In this document: positions 49,494 to 57,436 of the stretch, in pieces
How the letters are laid out: the number at the start of each line of letters is the position of its first letter
How positions within the stretch are numbered: position 1 is the first letter of the stretch
Source of the DNA: Methanococcoides burtonii DSM 6242
GTDB lineage: Archaea > Halobacteriota > Methanosarcinia > Methanosarcinales > Methanosarcinaceae
Length of the DNA stretch: 64,000 bases
Direction of reading: 5' to 3'
NCBI RefSeq assembly: GCF_000013725.1
Contig: NC_007955.1
Span: forward strand, 403,579 to 467,578
The notes under the pieces: generated by a model
Seen by the model: the letters and a program-made list of their open reading frames with translations, nothing else
What the model was told of the DNA's origin: nothing
The model's database searches: none
Translations under genes and position numbers: made by a program

Positions 49494-50615
49494 TCATACA
49501 TAATTTGCAAATGAGTTAGTTTCTTTAACTCCATTTTGCAAATTTGTAGCTACAAGCAATTGATATGCAACGAAATTCATAACTGAATACAGTTTCTTAC
49601 TGCCATTTTTCATTCCTCTGATGTCGAACTTTACAGTCCACTTAATATGATTGTGTACTCGTTCACATTCACCCCTGTGCGAATAATCTTCATCGAATCC
49701 ATCATCTTTGATATTCTTGTTTCGCAAGTGCATACCTACCTGTTTTTCTCTTCCATTTTCATAGAGGAAATGAAGTTTTTCTTCATATTTCATATGAATA
49801 GATCCACCAAGTTTCCACATTTTGTTAACCCAGTGATCAATTCTTTCCATCATTCCCTCGTATTGAACTTTAGAATCCGAAGAGTATGCAATCACTGGTT
49901 TTGCATTCAACTTATACCAGATATCTGCATGATTCCTGAATGAATCATAACCTCCATCCAATGCATAAGTGTCAATGTCAACTCCCATTTCTACCAATGC
50001 ATCAATATGTTTCTTCAATTCAGGAGAATCGTGAGAAGCACCTTTTGTATGAGTCATGTAGATTGGAAGTGTTCCAATCATGGTGATGTGAGCTTTGTCC
50101 ATCTTACAATTATAATGCGGATTGTAATCTGCATACTTGTCATATCTTGATGCTTCAAGTGGAGTTGAATCTGTTTTCGCATCTCTAATCTTTGTATTTT
50201 TGGAGATATTCTTTCCAATTTTGAACATTACTTCATCGAGTCCAGTTTTTCCAAGTCTGTATATTACAAAATGATGCAGTGTTGCAGGGGATGGAAGATT
50301 CATAATGCCGTTATTGTCTTCAAAAGAAAGAAGCTGCGCTTCTTCTTTTGTTAAGGTCGATATTGTTTTCTCAAATGAGAGGTTTCTATAACATTTCACA
50401 ACGATGAGCTTTATCATTGACGAAACCTTATACCGAAAGTGCCAGTCCTTATCGGCATAATAGCTACTTTCAACATAAGAAGCAATGTCATCGATATCTA
50501 AGAAATACAAAAATTGGCATATTGATGCATTATCTGTGTTCAGATAGTTAGCAATTGAATCTCTGGTACAGATTCCGTCCGAAACATCGTAATAATATTT
50601 CATGGACTGGTACAT
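49494..50615 (-). CDS. IS1182/IS5-like DDE transposase
   Basis: A 373-residue DDE transposase. The N-terminal part is helical. The catalytic core shows AKTDSTPLEASRYDKYADY with the first Asp, DTYALDGGYDSFRNHADIW with the second, and HRGECERVHNHIKWTVKFD with the Glu. ATG at 50615. The frame is intact. It resembles DUF772-type transposases of methanogens; exact family assignment is tentative. Terminal repeats were not identified. Confidence 0.82.
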   Translation of the reverse strand: MYQSMKYYYDVSDGICTRDSIANYLNTDNASICQFLYFLDIDDIASYVESSYYADKDWHFRYKVSSMIKLIVVKCYRNLSFEKTISTLTKEEAQLLSFEDNNGIMNLPSPATLHHFVIYRLGKTGLDEVMFKIGKNISKNTKIRDAKTDSTPLEASRYDKYADYNPHYNCKMDKAHITMIGTLPIYMTHTKGASHDSPELKKHIDALVEMGVDIDTYALDGGYDSFRNHADIWYKLNAKPVIAYSSDSKVQYEGMMERIDHWVNKMWKLGGSIHMKYEEKLHFLYENGREKQVGMHLRNKNIKDDGFDEDYSHRGECERVHNHIKWTVKFDIRGMKNGSKKLYSVMNFVAYQLLVATNLQNGVKETNSFANYV

Positions 50616-56041: not shown

Positions 56042-57436
56042 TTACTTTCCTTTTCTTGACATAATCATTACTACGCTCAGGACCGATGATAACAAGACCA
56101 AAGCTTCAAATCCGGGAGTTGTCTTTGCATCATTTTCTCTTTTTTCAGAACTTACATCGATACCAAGATTCGCTTCTATATCTGCGTTAAGCCTGATCTG
56201 TTCAGCCATTTCCACAATTTCAGCTTTGTCTTTTAGAAGTTCGTAGAATCCGTGCCATTGTACGTAATCCGGTCCCATCATGAATGCGCCCATTCTTGCA
56301 CGTCTGCCTTCGTGGTGCCAGAACTCATATATCTTGAATTCAACAGGTTCATCAAAGTCCTGCTCTGTAAGCAAGCCGTCTTTCCTCAGGCTGTCGACTA
56401 TAGAACTTGAATCTGCATATTTTTTGTTATAGAGCTCTACAGTGGCATCTGCATTTTCGTAGTAGTTGTTCACCCATGTTTCTGAGTGGCATTGTTCGCA
56501 AACGGAAGTCATCCTCTCACGCTTTTCCTGCCAAGTGGTTCCGTCGCTGATCGGAGTTCCCAGTATGTTAGCCGTGTTGTCGGTATGCCTGGATACAGGT
56601 GGTTCAAGTTCCCATGAAAGCCGTGAACTTACATCGTGGGTGGCCTTTAGCTCATCTGTTCCTGACATGTGGCATACGGCACAGGTAGGTGCACGATAAT
56701 CCTCTCCGGCTTTCCAGTCCCCCTCGGTCCAGTTCCAGTCATCACCTTCTGTACCGTATATGCTTCCGTGTTTTGATTCAAAGTATATTTCGGTCTGTGG
56801 ATGGTCAGGCCCAAGATGACATTGCTGACAGGCTTCAGGCTTTCGTGCTTCCTCGACTGAAAATACATGGCGTGTGTGACAGGAAGCACAAGATCCAGAA
56901 CTACCATCGGGATTTATCCTTCCAATCCCATTGTTCGGCCACACGTCAGGATCATCTGTACTTTTTCCGGTCATATTGGTACCGTGGCATGCCTGACAGC
57001 CGTTGACAGTTGCATTATGACTGGCGGTGGTATATTCATCAAGTGTGATCTCGCTTTCAAGAGATGGTAGTTTTTGACCGTCAAAATCTACCTCATAGTA
57101 AAGAGTACCAAGGGAATGCAGGCTTCTTGTATTCTCCTCAAATGCAGCAACGTGGCAATTTCCACAGTCAGCAGCCGAAACTACCGGGGTCATATAAAGT
57201 CCCATATGTGCTATGGCATCCGGGTCGTCAGCTTCAGCAGTATGGCAGTTCTCACATGTTATGCCCGCTTCAGCATGCTTACTGTTCTCCCAGTCATCGA
57301 TGACTGCTGGAAATTTGTTCATGGAACTGTGACAGTCAAGACAACTGTCAGATACAGCAGCAGATGCTGATACTGGAACAATTATCAATATCAATATTGC
57401 TATAATAGTTAGTTTTAATATGTGCCCATTCTTCAT
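56042..57436 (-). CDS. Octaheme cytochrome c, hydroxylamine oxidoreductase-like, PGF-CTERM anchored
   Basis: A 464-residue secreted multiheme protein. A signal peptide covers about residues 1-26 (KLTIIAILILIIVPVSASAA). Eight CxxCH heme-binding motifs start at Cys32, 61, 91, 147, 183, 203, 252 and 313. The last third contains FWHHEGRRARMGAFMMGPDY and VQWHGFYELL, a clear signature of the HAO family, which oxidises hydroxylamine or hydrazine or, in other members, reduces nitrite. The C-terminus is PGFEALVLLSSVLSVVMIMS plus RKGK, a PGF-CTERM sorting signal cut by archaeosortase, so the mature protein should be surface-attached by a lipid. No redox partner gene is adjacent. The substrate is unknown. 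Confidence 0.93.
   Translation of the reverse strand: MKNGHILKLTIIAILILIIVPVSASAAVSDSCLDCHSSMNKFPAVIDDWENSKHAEAGITCENCHTAEADDPDAIAHMGLYMTPVVSAADCGNCHVAAFEENTRSLHSLGTLYYEVDFDGQKLPSLESEITLDEYTTASHNATVNGCQACHGTNMTGKSTDDPDVWPNNGIGRINPDGSSGSCASCHTRHVFSVEEARKPEACQQCHLGPDHPQTEIYFESKHGSIYGTEGDDWNWTEGDWKAGEDYRAPTCAVCHMSGTDELKATHDVSSRLSWELEPPVSRHTDNTANILGTPISDGTTWQEKRERMTSVCEQCHSETWVNNYYENADATVELYNKKYADSSSIVDSLRKDGLLTEQDFDEPVEFKIYEFWHHEGRRARMGAFMMGPDYVQWHGFYELLKDKAEIVEMAEQIRLNADIEANLGIDVSSEKRENDAKTTPGFEALVLLSSVLSVVMIMSRKGK

Follow-up and report, generated by a model that had tools for sequence, protein, structure and literature searches.

What does a methanogen do with a cytochrome that resembles hydroxylamine oxidoreductase (HAO)? 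The question is raised by an octaheme cytochrome c gene of Methanococcoides burtonii DSM 6242, located in a stretch of 64,000 nucleotides that we analyzed as a whole (the window; NC_007955.1, positions 403,579 to 467,578). The gene starts with ATG and encodes 464 amino acids plus a stop codon (Table 1). A first-pass annotation, made from the sequence alone, had described eight CxxCH motifs and a signal peptide. Both are present: the N-terminus is hydrophobic, and all eight motifs (cysteines at 32, 61, 91, 147, 183, 203, 252, and 313) are invariant over 47 homologues. The same annotation had considered that the gene might be contamination from a bacterial contig. This is excluded, since the genome is complete in one contig of 2,575,032 bp and copies with 93-96% identity are flanked by the same genes in three congeners (G016, G022, G023). 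The dN/dS values of 0.07-0.21 between orthologues correspond to purifying selection. Taken together, the one-contig genome, the conserved synteny, and these ratios indicate that the gene belongs to this genome, is intact, and is under selection. A DDE transposase gene (PF01609) is found about 5.4 kb away (window 49494-50615, minus strand).

Judged by its sequence and predicted fold, the protein is a member of the HAO superfamily, but not an HAO proper. It matched the Pfam family PF13447 (Multi-haem_cyto) at 4e-36. The closest PDB sequence in a single-sequence search was the octaheme cytochrome IhOCC of Ignicoccus hospitalis (4QO5, 1.6e-42); neither match can be put down to chance. With a 19-row profile, IhOCC again scored best (7e-122), compared with 3e-67 for Kuenenia HAOr and 8e-62 for Nitrosomonas HAO. 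The structure prediction proposed as a check gave an HAO-type fold (AlphaFold, pLDDT 85.8), for which Foldseek returned IhOCC as the best match (2e-22, TM 0.73) and HAOs at a TM of about 0.6 (Nitrosomonas HAO, 1FGJ, 1.5e-14). The eight hemes are in HAO order. We then calculated a tree of 51 rows with a careful method. A group of 44 rows (support 100/100) united the bacterial octahemes, IhOCC, and the M. burtonii protein, with the Nitrosomonas and Kuenenia HAO references outside; the references are partial sequences taken from alignments and form long branches, which leaves their exact place unsure. Within this group, the M. burtonii protein falls into an archaeal clade (85/85) together with sequences from methanogens, an ANME-2 bin, a euryarchaeal bin, a bin labelled Bathyarchaeota, and the archaeal genome G301. 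The copy on the contig binned as Bathyarchaeota (L056, 63% identity) is nested among ANME and methanogen sequences, which points to either transfer or misbinning.

The alignments agree with this placement. As in the reductive group of octaheme cytochromes (OCC), the cross-linking tyrosine of HAO is lacking and a loop of the type PN.G.GR.NPDG lies between hemes 4 and 5; this loop, with WPNNGIGRINPDG, is common to IhOCC and the bacterial group and absent from HAO. The segment GRRARMGAFMMGPDYVQWHG (residues 377-396), previously read as a mark of the HAO family, is indeed present, but it carries the OCC-group signature HH[ED]GRR, and Nitrosomonas HAO differs there. The earlier description as HAO-like therefore holds for the superfamily and the eight hemes, not for HAO proper, which is rejected by the missing tyrosine and the different clade. 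Two further families were considered. Heme 4 is bound by CQACH, and because of this histidine ligand the protein is not of the CxxCK type of NrfA and ONR; ONR matched the N-terminus only (1.4e-8 in the profile search). No OTR structure was among the PDB sequence, profile, or Foldseek matches listed. We conclude that the octaheme protein, although uncommon, can be recognised as belonging to a known enzyme family.

Table 1. Features of the octaheme cytochrome c gene in window coordinates
Feature	Position	Strand	Evidence
Complete octaheme cytochrome c gene (P0001)	56042..57436	-	Sequence, Pfam/PDB matches, Foldseek, dN/dS
Predicted signal peptide, residues 1-27	57356..57436	-	Hydrophobic N-terminus; model helix 4-24
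Heme 1 CLDCH, residues 32-36	57329..57343	-	Motif, invariant
Heme 2 CENCH, residues 61-65	57242..57256	-	Motif, invariant
Heme 3 CGNCH, residues 91-95	57152..57166	-	Motif, invariant
Heme 4 CQACH, residues 147-151, predicted catalytic	56984..56998	-	Profile alignment to 1FGJ, position of HAO heme 4
Heme 4-5 loop, residues 152-182, with WPNNGIGRINPDG	56891..56983	-	Alignments
Heme 5 CASCH, residues 183-187	56876..56890	-	Motif, invariant
Heme 6 CQQCH, residues 203-207	56816..56830	-	Motif, invariant
Asp211-His212, distal side of heme 4, equivalent to HAO Asp267-His268	56801..56806	-	Alignment
Heme 7 CAVCH, residues 252-256	56669..56683	-	Motif, invariant
Heme 8 CEQCH, residues 313-317	56486..56500	-	Motif, invariant
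C-terminal helix HHEGRRARMGAFMMGPDYVQWHG, residues 374-396, with Trp394/His395 at the place of HAO Tyr467	56249..56317	-	Alignments
PGF-CTERM-like tail TTPGF...SRKGK, residues 439-464	56045..56122	-	Motif, relatives' tails, archaeosortase A

The predicted catalytic heme is heme 4 (C147-H151). Its distal Asp211-His212 pair is kept in all groups of the alignment but the IhOCC type, where position 212 is Val. Seven further histidines are conserved (54, 77, 107, 190, 223, 267, and 374 or 375) and, in a tentative assignment, would suffice for seven bis-His hemes. A search for the cross-linking tyrosine (Tyr467 of Nitrosomonas HAO), suggested by the first-pass annotation, was negative: the column holds Trp394/His395, and although gap placement can bring Trp394, Gln393, or His395 into it, no placement gives a tyrosine. 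The nearest one, Tyr391, is Phe in two orthologues and therefore cannot be a conserved cross-linker. Absence of this residue is a mark of reductive HAOs (PMC12485887, PMC12758564); reductive enzymes of the family have His at the key site, whereas oxidative ones have Tyr (PMC12758564), and Kuenenia HAOr, which also lacks the tyrosine, reduces nitrite to NO (PMC12485887). Since the Asp-His pair is kept and the tyrosine is missing, a reductive enzyme acting on nitrite and/or hydroxylamine is predicted. Some other archaeal HAO-like octahemes (L031, L034, L036, L037) have a Tyr (DYxxWYGW) at the His395 column, next to the Tyr467 column.

The protein ends in a TTPGF motif, a hydrophobic stretch, and a basic SRKGK terminus. 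It had been called a PGF-CTERM protein, and this assignment stands for the motif and for the archaeosortase A (ArtA) gene that the M. burtonii genome encodes (8e-93), but the PGF-CTERM model TIGR04126 did not score the tail itself. Two relatives in the same archaeal clade, from G301 (L018) and from a member of the family (L006), have tails that pass the cut-off of 24.5 bits with 28.0 and 24.6 bits, respectively. The archaeosortase, the motif, and the relatives' tails make anchoring likely. With the signal peptide, they support the earlier suggestion that the protein is secreted and probably held at the cell surface.

The gene stands alone. As noted before, no partner cytochrome is encoded beside it, and no nitrogen-cycle gene adjoins it in the methanogen loci. 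The M. burtonii genome encodes cytochrome c assembly proteins but no member of the NapC/NirT family and no NapA, the only match to the latter being a 31% fragment. In methanogens, the octaheme gene is solitary and lies at different places in different genera. It occurs in 9 of the 112 genomes of the family (3 of 14 genera), and this patchiness suggests repeated gain or loss; a truncated copy in genome G058 (L048:8711-9481), a C-terminal remnant of 256 amino acids with two hemes, is a sign of gene loss in one family genome. From so patchy a distribution it follows that the protein is not needed for methylotrophic life. Its presence in a methanogen, regarded as unexpected at first, is less so given these nine genomes and the HAO-cluster cytochromes already tabulated for archaea in 2015 (11 matches; PMC4429474). 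Archaeal IhOCC-type sequences (Ignicoccus, Ferroglobus) also appear in an HAO tree from 2025 (PMC12758564). Thus, the protein adds a further case to a kind already described; our literature search found no paper treating the M. burtonii gene.

Two other multiheme cytochromes were met in the course of this analysis. M. burtonii encodes an ONR-like octaheme of 405 amino acids (C1:17872-19089; L050:7873-9090, plus strand) with seven CxxCH motifs and CVACK at heme 4. It was considered as MmcA, but judging from the CVACK motif and from the surrounding open reading frames listed, which include no Rnf genes, it is probably not MmcA. A putative Rnf operon has been reported for M. burtonii (PMC3017947). 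The CVACK octaheme (orthologues L163-L169) occurs in 32 of the 112 family genomes. In six genomes from two genera the gene is interrupted at one position by a TAG codon in frame (KWDR-TAG-YANVD; LYxK/R-TAG-YGEVV), where homologues with the same extra heme have Trp. The five long copies have no further stop between this codon and the tail, so that the remaining hemes are in frame. These genes are candidates for a pyrrolysine-containing cytochrome. In genome G057, a gene some 4 kb away from that of the octaheme (L046:12891-14186) encodes an unrelated cytochrome with eight CxxCH motifs and a PGF tail. It was rejected as a general partner, since its orthologues (7 of 112 genomes) are absent from M. 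burtonii and occur in only two genomes that carry the octaheme gene.

The neighbourhoods of relatives are richer. The loci were taken from the best 80 of 563 matches, and all fractions describe that sample only: among its 69 bacterial loci, 42 show a membrane redox partner, either close by or fused, and in 28 of the 42 this partner is of the NapC/NirT type. This partner type does not fix the direction of the reaction, since NapC-family partners also serve oxidative HAO. In the archaeal genome G301 (58% identity; L018/L049), the octaheme gene overlaps a gene for a Tat-signalled molybdopterin protein of 786 amino acids, which scored best against the NapA model (703 bits, below the cut-off of 904); this pair (L049:6057-9793) is a possible unit for two-step nitrate and nitrite reduction. 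In an Acidobacteria bin (L103), genes for NapA (above the cut-off) and NapB come after the octaheme gene, and cytochrome b and Rieske genes before it. In three Nitrospirota/Nitrospinota bins (L057, L058, L063), the octaheme gene lies downstream of NapC-type and ammonium transporter genes. Among the neighbours of the relatives, no gene family of sulfur metabolism is conspicuous. In Desulfobacterota/Proteobacteria bins (L059, L081, L092), the octaheme is fused behind a CopD-like membrane domain (730-738 amino acids in all); that of L092 also has a cytochrome b5-like match below the Pfam cut-off.

We favor, with a probability of about 0.6, the view that the protein is a secreted, surface-held, IhOCC-like octaheme of the reductive branch that reduces nitrite and/or hydroxylamine, most likely for detoxification. 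These two substrates had been proposed before, and the missing tyrosine, the grouping with IhOCC, and the nitrogen-cycle neighbours of relatives support them; direction, substrate, anchoring, and physiological role are what we infer. The cytochrome c assembly proteins, the archaeosortase, and the purifying selection also speak for this view. Against it count the lack of an adjacent donor, of the NapC/NirT family, and of NapA in the genome, the patchy distribution, the tail missed by TIGR04126, and the score of the G301 NapA-like protein below the cut-off. The processed PGF-type tail would hold the cytochrome at the cell surface. Methanophenazine is the membrane carrier of the family. Electrons would pass from the membrane chain (presumably from this carrier via another cytochrome) into the heme wire, and the His-ligated heme 4, beside Asp211-His212, would be the site where nitrite and/or hydroxylamine is reduced. 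Nitrogen oxides harm methanogens, and the likeliest role would be to keep nitrite, hydroxylamine, or NO away from methyl-coenzyme M reductase by removing them, while the disposal of electrons would be a secondary gain. As the genome lacks a Nap-type nitrate reductase, the substrate would come from outside the cell, which favors detoxification over respiration. A nitrite-reducing enzyme for comparison is Fsr (PMC10202398). More speculatively, the protein might be a stand-alone nitrite-ammonification module at the surface, which would turn nitrite or hydroxylamine into ammonium, fed by methanophenazine via a donor so far unrecognised in methanogens, and separate from both nitrate reduction and the F420-dependent nitrite reductases of the Fsr type.

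The main rival, which we consider unlikely, is a surface electron conduit to Fe(III), humics, or syntrophic partners, with a heme 4 that has no specific substrate. The surface-type tail, the eight hemes, the solitary position of the gene in methanogens, and the precedent of MmcA (PMC11024163) fit such a function. But a plain wire would not need the distal Asp-His pair and the surroundings of heme 4, which are strictly kept, and relatives adjoin NapA/NapB, NapC, and ammonium transporter genes; pure extracellular electron transfer, raised in the first-pass annotation, thus found no specific support. Somewhat more doubtful still is a reductase that acts on a different small oxyanion or nitrogen oxide, such as sulfite, NO, or tetrathionate. 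Related multiheme reductases are promiscuous: sulfite is a further substrate of octaheme nitrite reductase (PMC8840924), and OTR accepts tetrathionate, nitrite, and hydroxylamine (PMC11024163). But nitrogen-cycle genes do occur beside relatives, and no family of sulfur metabolism is prominent there. An oxidative enzyme, that is a true hydroxylamine oxidoreductase or hydrazine dehydrogenase, is very improbable, since family, fold, and the equivalents of Asp267/His268 would allow it but the tyrosine is absent, the protein lies outside the HAO references, and there is no context of ammonia oxidation.

If nitrite or hydroxylamine is indeed reduced at the surface, this would give a methanogen available in culture a direct means of surviving nitrogen oxides at oxic-anoxic boundaries, and octaheme reduction would touch the methane and nitrogen cycles together. 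Because the gene is patchily distributed between close relatives, this idea is testable on paired strains with and without it. The name hydroxylamine oxidoreductase on such genes is probably wrong in direction and calls for caution in annotation.

Among known systems, ONR, OTR, and MmcA resemble the protein in their eight (or seven) hemes; the latter two have been described from Methanosarcinales (PMC11024163). Nitrosomonas HAO has the same superfamily fold, heme order, and Asp267-His268, but the M. burtonii protein lacks Tyr467, differs at the conserved His 107 and 374, and contains the extra loop. Kuenenia HAOr (kustc0458, 6H5L) agrees in the HAO fold, the eight hemes, the Asp-His pair, and the absence of the cross-linking tyrosine, but belongs to another clade, has no heme 4-5 loop, and works with a partner cytochrome whose gene is adjacent. 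The bacterial octahemes (Vibrio, Shewanella, Desulfobacterota, Planctomycetota, Nitrospinota; L057-L132) are about 39-48% identical and share Asp-His, HHEGRR, and WPN.GIGR.NPDG; they have no archaeal tail and are usually accompanied by a NapC/NirT tetraheme, Rieske/cytochrome b, or a comparable partner, whereas the M. burtonii protein is an orphan. IhOCC (Igni_0955) reportedly reduces nitrite and hydroxylamine, in work by Parey and co-workers from 2016. It has been grouped with octaheme nitrite reductases (PMC11024163). The M. burtonii protein differs from it by His212 in place of Val, by HHEGRR in the C-terminal helix, by its shorter length, and by the PGF-type tail; although only about 26% of the residues are identical in the structural alignment, both have eight CxxCH motifs, the PN.G.GR.NPDG loop between hemes 4 and 5, and no cross-linking tyrosine.
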